Positions 36,359-49,506 of a stretch of 64,000 nt of DNA are shown in pieces; position 1 is the first letter of the stretch, and each line of letters starts with the position of its first letter. The position numbers and the translations under genes are program-made. The notes under the pieces are model-generated. The model saw only the letters and a list, made by a program, of their open reading frames with translations. It searched no databases and was not told the origin of the DNA. The DNA is from an uncultured Candidatus Peregrinibacteria bacterium (GTDB lineage Bacteria; Patescibacteriota; Gracilibacteria; Peribacterales; Peribacteraceae), in contig CAIKAD010000001.1 of assembly GCA_903825315.1 (NCBI GenBank), forward strand, positions 248,001 to 312,000. The letters are read 5' to 3'.

Positions 36359-36958
36359 TTATTGGCCTAAAACCGCTTCTACTTCCTTCAGCGTCTCTTC
36401 CAGCTTCCCCTCCCTGTTGAGGACCTGTGCCGTGCACAGTGGCGCAATGGAGAGCTCCCGGTCCATGCTCGCGATGCGGCGGGCGAGCTCTTCCTCCGAC
36501 ATCGGCGCGCGGTTCTTGATGCGTGTGATCAATTGGTCGCGGCTCTCCGGAAGGATGAAGATGGAAACGAGGGTGTACGGTGTGGGCACGCCCGAGAAGA
36601 GGGGATTGATACGGATGCTCTGGAACCCCTGAACGTCCACTTCGCGGATGACGGTTCTGCCCTCGCGGATGGCGGGGAGAATTTCGTCCTTGAGCGTTCC
36701 GTATCGCGCTCCGCCGTGCACCGTGGCCGTCTCGATAAAAGCGTCCTTCTTGAGGAATGCGTCAAACTCCTCTTCACTCAAAAAGCGATAGAGGTCTCCG
36801 CCCTCGCCCTGTCGCCGCGGCCGCGTGGTGGCGGATTTAGGAAAAGCCAGTTCAGGATGTCTCCTGCGCAATTCCTGCAAAATCACGCTCTTCCCCACGC
36901 CGCTTGGACCGATAATAAGAACCAATTTTCCGGAAGACGGGGCAGGGGAACTGAGCAT
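36359..36958 (-). CDS. gmk: guanylate kinase
   Basis: GKLVLIIGPSGVGKSVILQEL; FPKSATTRPRRQGE; GARYGT. Confidence 0.95.
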   Translation of the reverse strand: MLSSPAPSSGKLVLIIGPSGVGKSVILQELRRRHPELAFPKSATTRPRRQGEGGDLYRFLSEEEFDAFLKKDAFIETATVHGGARYGTLKDEILPAIREGRTVIREVDVQGFQSIRINPLFSGVPTPYTLVSIFILPESRDQLITRIKNRAPMSEEELARRIASMDRELSIAPLCTAQVLNREGKLEETLKEVEAVLGQ

Positions 36959-37050: not shown

Positions 37051-38208
37051 ATGAAAGTAAGTCCCGGAACCACAGGCTGGAATGCGGGCGAACGGCGGCT
37101 CCTCTTTATGGAGAAACGGGATGCGGAACAAGTTTTGGACAACGTGGGCAAGCCCCGCGTTGCGCTGCCGTCGGTGGAGAACAATGTGCAGGAACTTTTT
37201 AGGAAGATGGAAGGGAAACTGGGAAACATCGGCATTCTCCGGTCTATCGTGTCCGGGGGTGCCAACCGCGCCCGCGACCTAAGGGTCGAGTCTGTTCTCG
37301 ATGAAGCAGCCCAGCGCGAGATAGAAACGAGGACCAATGCGGCGGTATCGTGGATCGGTGGTTTTGTGAAGCGGCGCAAGTATCGCGAGTACGTCGCGCT
37401 CCGGCACGCGGTCAAAGAACGGATGCGTGCGGAGGTGGAGGAGTTCGTGCGGGCAAGGCAAGAGCGCCTGGAGTCGCTTGCGTTCGCGGCTGGGGTGGCG
37501 GCCAAACTTCGCAATGTCACGAGCTTTGTCTCCGCCAAAGGCAGCGAGGCAAACCTGCAGCTGGCGCTCGGCCGGGTGCGTGTTCGCCTGCAGGAGAAGC
37601 GGCAGAAGGACGAGAAAATGGGGATGGAAATTCCAGAGGAATGGCAGGAGGCAGCGCGGTCCGAAGCCATCCTCCGCCGGGAACTGCTCCGCTTCGGGGT
37701 CCTCGATCCCCGTAACTTGGAGGCATTCCTCCAGGGGAATGCGGATGGAAGGAAAGACCTCATTAATCACATTAAAGCCCATCCGTTTCTCGATCCTGAT
37801 GATCCTCCCCCACAGCGGTCCCATGAGCAGGAGAGGGCTCTCTGCTTGCAGATCGCCCGCAAGCTGCAAACCGGTTTCTGGAGCCGTGCCTCTACCGGCT
37901 ACCGCAATCTCCGGCTCACCGCGCAGAGCGGTAACGCCCTTCCGCTTTCCAGGCGATTGCAGGCGTTATCGGAGAGAGGGGATGCAGTCGGTTCCGTCGT
38001 AGAGTTTACCTGTCCCGGTATTGGCGTTGTGCAGGCGTTCGTGGTGGCGCGAGATGCGCAGTTCCCGGAGGCGCTCATTCTCCGCGGCGGAGGCTCGGCG
38101 CACTACGTATTGGATACCAAGACCGGACGGCTCACGTACCGGGACGCCGTCGGAGCGTACAAGCATTTCCTTCTCACCGAGAGCACCTTCTCCTTCCTTG
38201 CCTCCTGA
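37051..38208 (+). CDS. orphan 385-aa helical protein
   Basis: Intact ORF, 2 nt before next CDS; no recognised family. Confidence 0.7.
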   Translation: MKVSPGTTGWNAGERRLLFMEKRDAEQVLDNVGKPRVALPSVENNVQELFRKMEGKLGNIGILRSIVSGGANRARDLRVESVLDEAAQREIETRTNAAVSWIGGFVKRRKYREYVALRHAVKERMRAEVEEFVRARQERLESLAFAAGVAAKLRNVTSFVSAKGSEANLQLALGRVRVRLQEKRQKDEKMGMEIPEEWQEAARSEAILRRELLRFGVLDPRNLEAFLQGNADGRKDLINHIKAHPFLDPDDPPPQRSHEQERALCLQIARKLQTGFWSRASTGYRNLRLTAQSGNALPLSRRLQALSERGDAVGSVVEFTCPGIGVVQAFVVARDAQFPEALILRGGGSAHYVLDTKTGRLTYRDAVGAYKHFLLTESTFSFLAS

Positions 38209-38210
38209 CC

Positions 38211-38651
38211 ATGGCTCAGACAAATGTCACGATCGGCGAAGTGCTTAAGGCCATTGAAGTCCTGCCTCTTGCCCGGCAGGAGGAAGTGATTACGACAATC
38301 CAGAAGCAAGGTGGCATCACCCCGGAGTACGCGCAGAAGATCGCTGAACTGTTGGAGAATCAGGTACAGGAGGAAGCGGGATCCGCGCAAGAATTGGAGG
38401 AAGAACGTCGGCTTCTTCGGGAGGCGGCTGGAGACCTTGCGCGTGGTCGCAGGGACGAACAATTGCCTGCTGAAACCCCGGCTGAGAGCGAAGAGGAGAT
38501 CCAATTGCAGCAGGAGGCGTACGAAGAGTGGTTCGCCGGTGTGCAGGACATAGAACGGCAGGCTGCCAGGCGGGCGGAAGGGGCAAAGAGGACCGGTGAA
38601 GAAGAGGAAATGGCGCGGTTACGGAATATGCTCAAGGGCGAACAGGCATAG
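38211..38651 (+). CDS. orphan coiled-coil protein
   Basis: 146-aa Glu-rich ORF directly downstream of 37051..38208. Confidence 0.65.
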   Translation: MAQTNVTIGEVLKAIEVLPLARQEEVITTIQKQGGITPEYAQKIAELLENQVQEEAGSAQELEEERRLLREAAGDLARGRRDEQLPAETPAESEEEIQLQQEAYEEWFAGVQDIERQAARRAEGAKRTGEEEEMARLRNMLKGEQA

Positions 38652-38683
38652 GTTTACCTCAACAGAAAGGGCTCAAACCGAAT

Positions 38684-38711
38684 TGCAGAATACTGTTAAA
38701 TTTGGTATACT
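38684..38711 (+). promoter_or_regulatory. promoter of the structured ncRNA (TTGCAG-16-TATACT)
   Basis: -10 TATACT at 38706-38711; -35-like TTGCAG at 38684-38689; boxA-like TGCTCTTTGAAAA at 38721-38733. Confidence 0.65.
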
Positions 38712-38717
38712 TTACAG

Positions 38718-39160
38718 ATTTGCTCTTTGAAAACTCACTACCCTTGCCCTGCACCTGAGCGAAGCGAATGGTACAGGGCTGGCAGGGAGAGTGGAGAGGC
38801 GACGGAATCCGCCCTCGCTTCTGCACCCTCCCTGCCTCCTCCGCGGCATCTCGACTACCGCGATCCCGAGGCTCCCTCACTGAGGGACTCTCTCGCTCTC
38901 TCTCCACTGAGAGAAAGCACACAAACACAAACGTCCTGCTCCCGGGACAATGGGAGGTCGGTCCCGAACCATCGGGCGCCACATACACACACACGAGCCG
39001 CACACTCTCCAAAGTGCGAAGGGTAGGGAGTATGCAGCGACAGTCGCGCTGCACACTGCTCACCTCTTGCAGACCTTTACGGTCGCGAGGTGTGCGACAA
39101 GCCCCGTATCATTCTGTTCTTCCGGTCCTTGAGGGAGAGTAGGGTGATACGGGGCTTTAT
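38718..39160 (+). ncRNA. large structured ncRNA of unknown class
   Basis: Promoter and boxA, six or more strong hairpins (38747-38778, 38781-38836, 38838-38871, 38874-38886, 39034-39052, 39061-39092) and terminator GCCCCGTATCA...TGATACGGGGC-TTTATT. Confidence 0.72.
39101..39160 (+). terminator. terminator of the structured ncRNA
   Basis: gccccgtatca / tgatacggggc stem then tttatt. Confidence 0.8.
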
Positions 39161-39312: not shown

Positions 39313-40305
39313 ATGCCCCGAGCCAAAGTTGCCATTCTCTACGTTGGCGGGTCCATCGGAATGGTTGTGAACAACAAGACGGGACGCATTGAGCCGATGG
39401 AGTCGCTCAGCCTTATCCATCGCGCTATTCCGGAGATGCAGCGCGAGGTGTCGCTGCAGTTCTATTCATTGGAGAACATCGGGTCGTCGGAAGTGACGCC
39501 GGAGCACTGGGTGGATATTGCGGAGAAGATCCGGGAGATCTACAACCACTTCGACGGCTTTGTAGTGATCCACGGGACCAACACCATGTCCTACACGGCG
39601 GCGGCGCTCAGTTTTGCGCTGCAGAACCTTAGCAAGCCCGTGGTGTGTACCGGAGCGCTTTTGCCCATCAACGAACTCGCGGGCGACGGCCGCATGAATC
39701 TCATCTTTGCCATCCGCGCGGCCCAATTGGACCTTGCCGAGGTGTGCGTCAGCTTGGGGCCCAAAGTACTCCGTGGCACGCGCGCCAAGAAGGTGGAGGA
39801 TTCGCTCATGCAGACGTTCGATAGTCCGCGCTTTCCCGCATTGGCGGACTTTAGTACCGGTGTGCACCTGCATCCGTGGCGGCTGGTGCGGCGCAAGCGC
39901 ACACTCCTTTGCCGGCCGACGTTCGATACCAATGTTATTGTGGTCACGCTCACGCCGGGTATTTCCGATGCCTATCTCCATGCCGTCCTCGCTGCCAAAC
40001 CGCACGGCATCGTCCTGCGCGCCTACGGGCCCGGCATGCTGCCGGAGCGGCTCTTCCCGTGGCTGCGGGAGGTTAAACATGCCGGCATTCCCGTGGTGAT
40101 CATCTCGCAAACCTTGCGCGGAGCGATTGATCTCCACCGCTTCCGCAAGCAGCTCACCTTGGAGGAATTGGGCATCATCTCCGGCAAAAACATGAGCTTC
40201 GAATGCGCTACTGCCAAACTGATGTGGGCCTTGAAACAGGCGAAGACACCATTGCGTTTGAGGGAATTGATGGAGAGGAGTTTGGTGGGGGAGCTGGATG
40301 AATGA
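39313..40305 (+). CDS. L-asparaginase type I-like
   Basis: KVAILYVGGSIGMV; DGFVVIHGTNTMSYTAAALSF; GAL LPINELAGDGRMNL. Confidence 0.93.
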   Translation: MPRAKVAILYVGGSIGMVVNNKTGRIEPMESLSLIHRAIPEMQREVSLQFYSLENIGSSEVTPEHWVDIAEKIREIYNHFDGFVVIHGTNTMSYTAAALSFALQNLSKPVVCTGALLPINELAGDGRMNLIFAIRAAQLDLAEVCVSLGPKVLRGTRAKKVEDSLMQTFDSPRFPALADFSTGVHLHPWRLVRRKRTLLCRPTFDTNVIVVTLTPGISDAYLHAVLAAKPHGIVLRAYGPGMLPERLFPWLREVKHAGIPVVIISQTLRGAIDLHRFRKQLTLEELGIISGKNMSFECATAKLMWALKQAKTPLRLRELMERSLVGELDE

Positions 40306-44850: not shown

Positions 44851-45738
44851 TTACGCCGGGACTACCGAGATCACAAATGCCACGATCATGTAGCTGAGAA
44901 TAATGACCGCCAATCCGATGAGGGAACGGATGAGGAGGCTCTTGCCCTTGGAGGCCTGTTCCTCATTTCCGAAGCTGGAGAGGTACAGGATGCCTGCGTA
45001 GATGACCACCGCAACAGCTGCAAGTGTGACGAATCCGAGAATGTACTCCACGATTGTGACGATAACAGTCACGAATTCCGTGGGAGTATTGGGGGCGCCT
45101 ATGGATTGCCCGTACCCGAACATCCTCCCCAGGACGAACCGCAGGAGGATGAGGAGGATGCCTGCCGCGATGGCGAAGATCGCGTTGCGCAGGTTGGTGA
45201 GACCCTGCTCGTTCCCTGCCGAATAGATAGCCTTGAGGCCCGTGATGACGATCATGAGCACGGCAAGGATGCCCACGAGGAACAGCACCCAGTCGATAAT
45301 GGCCATGATTTCGTCATTCAACACCTGTACGCCGGCGTCCGGATTGGATCCGAAGACACTGCCGAGCGCCCCTTCGGTGCCGTAGAATGCTTTGATGAAG
45401 GGGTTGATCATGTAGGCCATGATGATGCCCACGATGCTCATCGTGAGGATGTGCTTAGCTGTTTCCTTGGAATTGTCATCCTGTCCAATCACCATCCGGT
45501 ACCCTGCGTAGATGATCATGATGACTGCCACGATGGCGACGTAAGGCCGTGCCTGGCCGACGAGGATCATAAAGAGGGTATTCGCGCTTTGCGCCGCCGT
45601 TCCTCCTCCTCCAAAATCCGGAAGCCCGCTTCCGACACTATCGACCACGTCTTGGACGTTACCCAGGCTGATGGCAGCATGTGCCGCTTGCGGTAGCAAG
45701 AGCACAAGGAAGCCGATGAGGGAGGAGAGGAGTTTCAT
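44851..45738 (-). CDS. membrane protein with three tandem VirB2/T4SS-pilin-like modules
   Basis: Signal peptide; repeats IIYAGYRMVIGQDDNSKETAKHILTMSIVGIIMAYMI / VITGLKAIYSAGNEQGLTNLRNAIFAIAAGILLI / VIYAGILYLSSFGNEEQASKGKSLLIRSLIGLAVIILSYMIV. Confidence 0.75.
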   Translation of the reverse strand: MKLLSSLIGFLVLLLPQAAHAAISLGNVQDVVDSVGSGLPDFGGGGTAAQSANTLFMILVGQARPYVAIVAVIMIIYAGYRMVIGQDDNSKETAKHILTMSIVGIIMAYMINPFIKAFYGTEGALGSVFGSNPDAGVQVLNDEIMAIIDWVLFLVGILAVLMIVITGLKAIYSAGNEQGLTNLRNAIFAIAAGILLILLRFVLGRMFGYGQSIGAPNTPTEFVTVIVTIVEYILGFVTLAAVAVVIYAGILYLSSFGNEEQASKGKSLLIRSLIGLAVIILSYMIVAFVISVVPA

Positions 45739-46514
45739 GGGATGATGTCCCTGAGGCCGATGAAGGTGTTCACGAGGACGTAGGAGATGAGGATGACGAT
45801 GAGCGTGAAGATGGCGGTCTTGATGACGGTCTGCGCCTTTCCCTTGAGGGATTCGTCCACGGACACCACAAGCATGATTCCCGCCACTATCAATGCAATC
45901 ACAATGGAGATGCCGAGGATTGTGAGAATGAAGTTGATGATACCCTTCGCCTCTGCCGTCAGGAGCTTCAAATCGTGGCCATGGCCGGGGTCCACCGCCG
46001 TCACGATGATGTGGGAAACGAGCACAAGGACGATACCGATGAAGCTGTAGATGAGGCGCTTGCGTGCGCGCTCCACGTACTCCTGCTCGCCGCCCGAGAA
46101 GATGAGGCGGAACCCCTGGATCACGATGTTCACTATGAGGGCTATAGAGACAGCGAGTTGCGCGTAGGTAATCACATTTCCCAGCGCGGTATCTGCATAA
46201 GCGCCTCCCCCCGATCGAATGGCGTTTGTTGAGCCGGGCGCGACGGAATTTACGAGCATTGTTGCCACGGACACCACAATGACTCCTGCCACCGCGTAAC
46301 TGTACGAGTGCTTGGATTCCGCCATCGCACTCTCATCATGGCTGTAGAAGACCATGATGACGGAGTAGATGAAGAGGAAGAGACCGAGGACACCCCAAAA
46401 CAGGACGCGGGCTGGTTCCTCGAAAGCGCTCAGGTACCCGCTCAAGCCGACATCGACGGACACCGCCAAGCCGGGGTTGGTGGGCTGGATCGGAAAAGCC
46501 CAGGCGTGTTGCAC
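45735..46514 (-). CDS. membrane protein with VirB2/T4SS-pilin-like modules, paralogous to neighbour
   Basis: IVIQGFRLIFSGGEQEYVERARKRLIYSFIGIVLVLVSHIIV and IVAGIMLVVSVDESLKGKAQTVIKTAIFTLIVILISYVLV. Confidence 0.7.
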   Translation of the reverse strand: MQHAWAFPIQPTNPGLAVSVDVGLSGYLSAFEEPARVLFWGVLGLFLFIYSVIMVFYSHDESAMAESKHSYSYAVAGVIVVSVATMLVNSVAPGSTNAIRSGGGAYADTALGNVITYAQLAVSIALIVNIVIQGFRLIFSGGEQEYVERARKRLIYSFIGIVLVLVSHIIVTAVDPGHGHDLKLLTAEAKGIINFILTILGISIVIALIVAGIMLVVSVDESLKGKAQTVIKTAIFTLIVILISYVLVNTFIGLRDIIP

Positions 46515-46921: not shown

Positions 46922-47018
46922 GGGAATATTGGAATACGAGAGTATTTGAATATTGGGGAAAGACGCTGTGTAGGTGCTATTTCCAATAGTCCCATATTCC
47001 AATACTCTAATACTTGAT
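46921..47018. repeat. word-type inverted repeat E13 (GGAATATTGGAATA class)
   Basis: gggaatattggaatacgagagtatttgaatattgggg vs reverse complement caagtattagagtattggaatatgggactattgg. Confidence 0.9.
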
Positions 47019-47019
47019 T

Positions 47020-47421
47020 ATGGCTCGCCGCCGACATCTCTCCCGCATCGCCGTCATGCAAGCGCTATTCGAGCGCGAAAAACATGAACGTACGGAGCCG
47101 CAGGCATCGCTTGAGCGCAATGCCGAGGAACTGGGTGAGGTGGATACGGAGTTTGCCGCAGTCTTGCTCAAGGGAGTTCTGTCCCGCGAGGGCGAAGTAA
47201 AGGCTGCCGTGCAGGAGCATGCGCCACAGTGGCCCATGGAGCGGATGGATCCCATTTCTCGTTGTATCCTGCTCATCGGCGCCTACGAACTTCTCTTTGC
47301 GAACGATGCCCCGCCGGCAGTGGTCATGAATGAAGCTATCGAGATTGCCAAGGAGTATGGGACCGACGAGGGTGGGAAGTTCGTGAACGGAGTGTTGAAT
47401 GCGATTGCCCATCGGAAGTAG
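47020..47421 (+). CDS. nusB: transcription antitermination factor NusB
   Basis: RRRHLSRIAVMQALFERE; ISRCILLIGAYELLF; VVMNEAIEIAKEYGTDEGGKFVNGVLNAI. Confidence 0.93.
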   Translation: MARRRHLSRIAVMQALFEREKHERTEPQASLERNAEELGEVDTEFAAVLLKGVLSREGEVKAAVQEHAPQWPMERMDPISRCILLIGAYELLFANDAPPAVVMNEAIEIAKEYGTDEGGKFVNGVLNAIAHRK

Positions 47422-47525: not shown

Positions 47526-47587
47526 ATCCCAAGTCAGTCCTCTCTCTTCACTTGGAACACTGTTCGAAAGCACGCTATCCTACGGTC

Positions 47588-48274
47588 ATGCCCGCCTCCC
47601 ACGTTCTCCTGGAAAAAGCCATTGGCGTCCGGTTCCGCAAGAAAGATCTGCTTCTGCAATCGCTCACGCACAGGTCTGCCGTGCGGGAAGCGGGAAGGCA
47701 TGGGCATAACGAGCGATTGGAGTTTCTCGGCGATGCCGTGCTGGAAATGGCGACCACGGAGTATCTGTTCAACTTGTCGGGACGCCCCGAGGGGGAGCTG
47801 ACCAATTGGCGCTCCGCGCTTGTCCAGGGAGATCACCTGGCCGAAGTTGCCAAGTCCCTCAAGCTGGGTGAGTACCTCTTCATGAGCCGTGGAGAAGAGG
47901 CGAGCGACGGGCGTAACAAGGTTTCCACGCTCGCCAACGCGCTTGAGGCGCTCATCGGTGCCATCCATCTTGACCGCGGCTACGAAGCGGCACGTCTCTT
48001 CTGCGAGCGCTTCATCCTTACGGACCTGCAGAAGCTTCTTTCACAGGGCAGGCATCGGGACGAGAAGAGTATGTTCCAGGAAATGGCACAGGAGAAGCAT
48101 GGCATCACGCCGCACTATGAGGTGCTGGAGGAAGTAGGCCCGGACCACGAGAAGATCTTCACGAGTGCTGTTTTCATCGACAAGGAGAAGATCGCCGAAG
48201 GCAAAGGCAATTCCAAGCAGAAGGCGGAGCAGGCGGCAGCGAAAGCGGCTCTAAAAGTGAAAGGCTGGAAATAG
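47588..48274 (+). CDS. rnc: ribonuclease III
   Basis: LTHRSAVREAGRHGHNERLEFLGDAVLEMA; EALIGAIHLD; C-terminal dsRBD GKGNSKQKAEQAAAKAAL. Confidence 0.97.
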   Translation: MPASHVLLEKAIGVRFRKKDLLLQSLTHRSAVREAGRHGHNERLEFLGDAVLEMATTEYLFNLSGRPEGELTNWRSALVQGDHLAEVAKSLKLGEYLFMSRGEEASDGRNKVSTLANALEALIGAIHLDRGYEAARLFCERFILTDLQKLLSQGRHRDEKSMFQEMAQEKHGITPHYEVLEEVGPDHEKIFTSAVFIDKEKIAEGKGNSKQKAEQAAAKAALKVKGWK

Positions 48275-48984: not shown

Positions 48985-49072
48985 AAAGATTATTGGAATA
49001 TGGGAATATTGGATTATTGAGGTGCTTATGGATCCCAATAGTCCAATACTCTTTGTTACTCGAATATTCGGT
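48985..49072. repeat. word-type inverted repeat E15 (GGAATATTGG class)
   Basis: gattattggaatatgggaatattggattattgagg vs reverse complement of cccaatagtccaatactctttgttactcgaatattcgg. Confidence 0.78.
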
Positions 49073-49506
49073 CAGCCCATCTTGATCTCGATGTCGACGC
49101 CGGACGGGAGGCTCAAGGACTGAAGGCTTTCGACGGTCTTGAACGTGGTCTCGGTGAGGTCGATGAGGCGGCGGTGGATGCGCATCTCAAACTGGTCGCG
49201 GGCGTCCTTGTGGACGAACGTGGAGCGGTTGACCGTGAACTTGCGGATGCGCGTGGGGAGGGGGATGGGGCCGTGGACGATGGCGCCGCTGCGCTCGGCC
49301 GTCTCCACAATCTTCTGGGCTGCCTCGTCGAGTACGGTATGGTCAAAGGCGCTCAGGCGGATACGGATGAGCGACATCTTTGGGGTGGCTTTTTCCTTGG
49401 CGGGCGCTGTGTCTTTCTTTGCAGAAACAGCCTTGGATCCCTTTGCGGACGGAGGAGACTTTGTGGTCTTCTTGGGGGCAGATGGTTTCTTCGCAGCGGG
49501 ATTCAT
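49072..49506 (-). CDS. rpsJ: 30S ribosomal protein uS10 with basic N-terminal extension
   Basis: [71 protein letters not shown]; ~43-aa Lys/Ala/Pro extension precedes it. Confidence 0.96.

Follow-up and report, generated by a model that had tools for sequence, protein, structure and literature searches.

Positions 38717-39159 on the forward strand of the window (the whole 64,000-nucleotide stretch that was analysed) hold a stand-alone non-coding RNA gene of about 440 nt, consisting of a promoter, a boxA-like 5' end, a multi-helix body and an intrinsic terminator (Table 1). The locus is almost certainly a genuine structured RNA gene, and the RNA class to which it belongs is apparently uncatalogued. 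The initial annotation had described a structured RNA with a boxA-like 5' end at this place, and that description is supported by the absence of an Rfam match and by strong covariation.

Table 1. Features of the RNA gene and its neighbourhood, in window coordinates.
Feature	Position	Strand	Details and basis
gmk, guanylate kinase, conserved neighbour	36359..36958	-	Pfam
Promoter	38683..38711	+	-35 TTGCAG 38683-38688, 17-nt spacer, -10 TATACT 38706-38711; sequence
boxA-like 5' end GATTTGCTCTTTGAAAAC	38717..38734	+	Inferred transcription start 38717; core after -10 box in homologs
P1 closing helix, 5' strand CTCACTACCCTT (boxC-like position)	38734..38745	+	Pairs with 39019-39030; permutation test
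P1a optional hairpin GCCCTGCACC..GGTACAGGGC	38747..38779	+	Missing from most homologs
P2 hairpin	38781..38836	+	Core GGCAGGGAG/CTCCCTGCC nearly invariant; upper stem covaries
P3 hairpin	38842..38862	+	Loop CGACT 38852-38856, kissing partner of P8 loop; helix covariation
P4 hairpin region CCCTCA/TGAGGG	38868..38890	+	Conserved AGGYTCCCTC
Linker 1 ACACAAACACAAAC	38919..38932	+	Conserved, A/C-rich, presumably single-stranded; alignment
P5 and P6	38939..38976	+	P5 38939-38943/38952-38956; P6 38963-38967/38972-38976, CCCGA..TCGGG
Linker 2 ACATACACACACAC	38981..38994	+	Alignments
H-type pseudoknot	38995..39017	+	GAG 38995-38997 with CTC 39005-39007 in P7 loop
P7	39000-39003/39014-39017	+	All 5 modelled pairs covary
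P1 closing helix, 3' strand AAGGGTAGGGAG	39019..39030	+	Permutation test
P8 hairpin	39033..39053	+	Loop ACAGTCG; AGTCG 39042-39046 kisses P3 loop; all 7 pairs covary
P9 hairpin, lineage-variable	39060..39093	+	Fold
Intrinsic terminator	39100..39159	+	12-bp stem AGCCCCGTATCA/TGATACGGGGCT, then TTTA; sequence and fold
Asparaginase-family gene, usual second neighbour	39313..40305	+	Pfam, synteny
nusB, boxA-binding antitermination factor	47014..47421	+	TIGR01951 above cut-off
rnc, RNase III	47552..48274	+	TIGR02191 above cut-off
rpsJ, ribosomal protein S10 (NusE), NusB's boxA partner	49072..49506	-	PF00338

Both hexamers of the promoter proposed in the initial annotation (TTGCAG-16-TATACT) are present, but the spacer is one nucleotide longer than given there. 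A TTG-type -35 element and a TA-rich -10 element are found at the equivalent position in most of the listed homologs, and many homologs end in terminator-like stems. The GC-rich hairpins, at least six in number, and the terminator stem that had been read from the letters are likewise present in the sequence. ORFs of 99-134 aa overlap the RNA region. However, the homologs have lengths of 312, 313, 337 and 365 nt, with differences not divisible by three, and their helices covary, so that no reading frame appears to be conserved; a coding gene was therefore rejected, in agreement with the earlier judgement that no convincing coding frame exists.

A DNA search detected homologs in all three of the genus's other genomes and in several from the family. 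Two covariance models of the 3' domain were built, one (R1) from six sequences and the other (R2) from 33. At E <= 0.01, R2 has matches in 56 of 360 genomes of the class, of which 52 fall in the window's family (about 75 genomes searched), 49 of them at E < 1e-4; the four matches outside the family but within the class (E 0.001-0.004) are probably due to chance. In a sample of 389 genomes from the phylum, strong scores were obtained only for family members, with one outsider at E = 7e-4. Matches to R1 or R2 outside the family, with E values of 0.0007-0.07, look like chance and were not retained as homologs. Strong matches occur once per genome, and it is well supported that the RNA class is lineage-wide in Peribacteria, with dozens of genomes represented. 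Query bases 104-143 also had matches in further genomes; these were discarded, as they correspond to a dispersed CCTGAGCGAAGCGAATGG-type palindrome-like element (window 38743-38778), which recurs at unrelated places in genomes of the family and class and seems to have been inserted in a peripheral hairpin.

The predicted fold of the RNA (38718-39160) has a free energy of -213.8 kcal/mol, compared to -156.0 +/- 6.7 for shuffled sequences (z = -8.6; 0/100 as stable). Within the body, P5 covaries, and P6 is conserved and missing in some homologs, while the tip of P2 ranges from a short loop to more than 100 nt, with a large extra domain in several genera. In L075, L080, L054, L079 and others, P2 is capped by a shared complex domain of about 100-150 nt (GAAGTGACRCC...GTCACTTC), which is found in several genera and is absent from the window's genus.

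Covariation was assessed on alignments of different depth. In the 33-sequence R2 alignment, 96.9% of cells pair and both-side changes occur at 12/12 modelled pairs, with a covariation score of 0.806 versus 0.184 for shuffled and <=0.150 for slid alignments. The R2 alignment had been fitted to the model, so a cleaner control is provided by the MAFFT alignment of six sequences, in which 7/12 pairs covary, a result matched in 0/500 shuffles. For P2, P3, P5 and P8, a MAFFT alignment of ten sequences gives the same picture. For three contacts outside the model, one partner was redistributed among the sequences as a permutation test. With the reservation that permutation figures are not exact probabilities, since relatedness is ignored, the kissing of the P8 and P3 loops, with P3 loop segments hand-picked from the helix, gave 387 against 328 +/- 10 (0/10000 permutations), the pseudoknot gave 232 against 187 +/- 9 (0/10000), and P1, summed over 38 homologs, gave -562 against -478 +/- 13 kcal/mol (0/3000). 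Several distinct pair types nonetheless occur: AGUCG/CGACU, GGUCG/CGACC, UGGUC/GACCA and GUUGGC/GCCAAC for the kissing loops, GAG/CTC, GGG/CCC, AGGT/ACCT and GGGC/GCCC for the pseudoknot, and UACCC/GGGUA, UGUCC/GGACA and CACUCU/AGAGUG for P1. L077, L079 and L092 lack P8 and also lack the matching P3 loop, and a few homologs (L112, L077 and L089) have only a weak P1 5' strand or none. The covariation check envisaged in the initial annotation thus yielded covarying helices in independent lineages, comprising the 12 modelled pairs and the three permutation-backed contacts. The P3-P8 contact may form within one molecule or between two; in GOLLD and ROOL, kissing loops join molecules too (PMC12286853). 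Strand exchange between P1 and P2, which have similar GGGAG/CTCCC sequences, may also be possible.

None of the Rfam 15 covariance models reaches its gathering cut-off on the RNA, including those for GOLLD, ROOL, OLE, raiA and 6S that had been singled out for comparison, and the whole window yields only four tRNAs. At 20 loci with homologs, no family is above cut-off on the RNA itself, and the sub-threshold matches in the region are for the most part noise from eukaryotic miRNA or snoRNA families. A literature search on Peribacteria non-coding RNA found nothing relevant. That the RNA could be a diverged form of a known housekeeping RNA (SRP RNA, 6S, RNase P or tmRNA) is scarcely credible: the small SRP RNA was indeed not found in five Peribacteria genomes, but the RNase P model (RF00010) does not match at the RNA locus and the RNase P RNA of the genome sits at C5:147829-148207, no tmRNA (RF00023, tRNA-like ends) lies within the window and that of the genome sits at C1:210878-211293, and the SRP (RF00169/RF01854) and 6S models have no match in the RNA region even at E = 10. 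A multi-branched body with a pseudoknot and a loop-loop contact is also a poor fit to SRP helix 8 or to 6S. The same results bear out the earlier statement that RNase P, tmRNA and SRP features are absent here. 16S, too, is encoded at another place in the genome, in which RF00169 gives no match. As a separate observation, RF00169 at E <= 1 has no match in genomes G000, G190, G195, G015 and G182, while it matches 13/14 control genomes; the SRP RNA of Peribacteria may be very diverged or absent.

In style, the RNA resembles RNase P RNA and tmRNA, which are likewise single-copy, about 400 nt long and pseudoknotted with variable outer domains; the resemblance goes no further, given that both have separate copies in the genome and models that do not match the new RNA. 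No boxA is, to our knowledge, present in the raiA motif / ModT RNA (RF03072). That RNA is likewise an orphan trans-acting bacterial RNA conserved across many species, with eight paired regions and two pseudoknots (PMC11706538), a trans role being a proposal for the RNA described here; it differs in being found in Bacillota and Actinomycetota, and its model gives no match to the region. OLE, GOLLD and ROOL are large ornate bacterial RNAs stabilised by kissing loops and supported by covariation (PMC12286853). The new RNA shares the kissing-loop contact and the covariation, but is smaller and is not matched by their models.

The guanylate kinase gene gmk is the nearest conserved gene at 32/32 named loci with an R1 match, and R2 adds diverged copies in L076, L083, L086 and L091 that are likewise upstream of gmk. 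In the window's own genus, two genes are inserted between gmk and the RNA. These intervening genes (37051-38208 and 38211-38651) have no Pfam or NCBIfam match and, among the named loci, are both found only in L109, which belongs to the same genus. The constant adjacency to gmk, together with the RNA being read toward it in L064 and L066, might suggest a cis-acting, riboswitch-like leader of gmk or of the asparaginase gene. However, transcription is mostly away from gmk, the asparaginase gene is found past the RNA at some loci and past gmk at others, giving three arrangements relative to the two genes, and the RNA has its own terminator, which makes such a leader very improbable; a cis-regulator of gmk in particular was rejected because the orientation varies. 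The RNA's own promoter and terminator and its variable arrangement beside gmk indicate instead an independent gene.

Genes for the proteins that act on boxA are also encoded close by. In the window, nusB, rnc and rpsJ are about 8-10 kb from the RNA, within a common gene block, and nusB is near the RNA in 5/5 genomes tested (about 6.5-11.5 kb away), a linkage that may be plain synteny, since the gene block is generally conserved. The same block, across Peribacteria, keeps two adjacent T4SS_pilin-domain proteins (window 44851-46514).

The boxA-like core, G-N-UC-H-UU, lies directly 3' of the -10 box in 40/41 homologs, and the conserved letters of this 5' core are those of boxA. One homolog (L068) carries GCTCTTTAACAA, with 12 nt identical to the boxA of the E. 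coli rrsB leader, and another (L077) carries GTTCTTTAACAA, compared with GCTCTTTAACAA in E. coli rrsB. Within the window, GYTCHTT occurs no more than 20 nt after 8/309 -10-like hexamers, and with this background a boxA in one genome alone would be weak evidence, whereas its conservation makes it strong. The 16S leaders of the family contain GCTCCTTCACA or GCTCATTCACA, plus TATTCTTTGAAAA-like stretches, and in the 16S leader of L114, GAGCTCATTCACA lies close 3' of the -10 box, an arrangement shared with the new RNA. A 23S leader from a different family of the class has TGCTCTTTACA directly 3' of its -10 box. The resemblance to 16S leaders is supportive and not decisive, as GCTCCTTCACA belongs to the processing stem as well and the likeness is thus not independent. 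Regarding that stem, the 16S leaders L030, L116 and L117 share a conserved CACAGCATCGTGTAGTAGAGAA 5' of 16S, and a near-complement of it lies 3' of 16S in the window genome, which would form a long processing stem. The 23S rRNA genes of family members (L139-L142) span 3,675-4,918 bp versus 2,925 model positions, and therefore probably hold large insertions or introns.

The distance from the -10 box puts the boxA-like element at about +1 to +13, right at the inferred start of the transcript. The rRNA-type boxA resemblance noted initially is sustained by the conserved core and the L068 match, but not as an element well inside a leader. With respect to a boxA-directed transcription unit, a conserved 5' boxA consensus is found in the RNA and both NusB and S10 are encoded in the genome. 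The candidate NusB-S10 site would be GAUUUGCUCUUUGAAAAC, and the boxA of the new RNA is probably functional. boxA is known to act outside rRNA, and the published boxA survey did not consider non-coding RNAs (PMC5725501). The boxA of the E. coli suhB leader is likewise outside rRNA operons (PMC5725501), but differs in sitting on an mRNA leader and repressing suhB.

Two other readings of the 5' end were considered. The likeness to boxA could be incidental, with the 5' end having a role in initiation, in RNA stability or in some internal contact, and with an ordinary orphan structured RNA as the body. The element is short, and at +1 it could be constrained as initially transcribed sequence; in addition, for the ten closest homologs RNAalifold predicts a pairing of GCUC with GAGC close to the pseudoknot. 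This boxA-GAGC pairing was rejected, however, as it is not maintained by co-change in other genera that have GGG or GGU in place of GAG, and with the conserved letters being boxA letters and one exact 12-nt match to E. coli, an incidental likeness is rather unlikely. Alternatively, the RNA could be a regulator or sponge whose 5' boxA sequesters NusB-S10 and so tunes rRNA synthesis. 6S RNA acts on polymerase in a comparable sequestering manner, boxA is the most conserved 5' element, and nusB and rpsJ are encoded close by; on the other hand, protein sponges usually repeat their site, while this RNA has one boxA in about 440 nt, and the elaborate 3' structure would be left unexplained. A sponge is accordingly doubtful, and more so than an incidental likeness.

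On balance, and with some reserve, the locus is best read as a gene of its own in Candidatus Peribacteria, encoding a highly structured housekeeping RNA that would act in trans and would use a boxA/NusB-S10-modified polymerase mechanism. Sequence comparison is the basis for the promoter- and terminator-like signals, the boxA-like end, the P1-closed body, the pseudoknot and the P3-P8 contact; from these we infer that NusB-S10 binds, that the transcript is protected from Rho, that closure is assisted and that the RNA acts in trans. NusB-S10 is brought in by boxA in E. coli, where a published proposal has the bound leader strand kept at the exit channel until the trailer appears (PMC10250234). 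The same use is inferred here from the same order of parts, namely boxA, P1 5' strand, body, P1 3' strand, P8 and terminator. As the polymerase leaves the promoter, NusB-S10 is predicted to capture the 5' boxA of the transcript and to stay with the polymerase, and the complex would shield the long untranslated transcript from Rho. The 5' strand of P1 would be kept tethered next to the RNA exit for about 280 nt of transcription, until the partner strand appears, and the body would be looped out and closed by P1, as proposed for pre-16S rRNA. Transcription would end at the intrinsic terminator, with RNase III trimming possible, and the finished RNA would form the core of a ribonucleoprotein or of an RNA-only complex. 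Bacterial pre-rRNA units likewise have a 5' boxA followed by a strand that closes the body by pairing with a partner far to the 3' side, and encode no protein; the new RNA differs in containing no ribosomal RNA, in its intrinsic terminator, in having boxA at +1 and in its body of about 300 nt.

Through this finding, a group of uncultured, genome-reduced bacteria gains a well-supported structured RNA class of lineage-wide distribution, and the covariance model, alignment and pairing predictions make this RNA directly testable. Only tentatively can it be suggested from the sequences that a Peribacteria-wide housekeeping RNA, as the core of a particle or enzyme, borrows the rRNA route of transcription and folding (boxA, NusB-S10 and closure by a long-range end helix). 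More generally, boxA antitermination may serve stand-alone non-coding RNAs, a case that falls outside the published boxA survey (PMC5725501).
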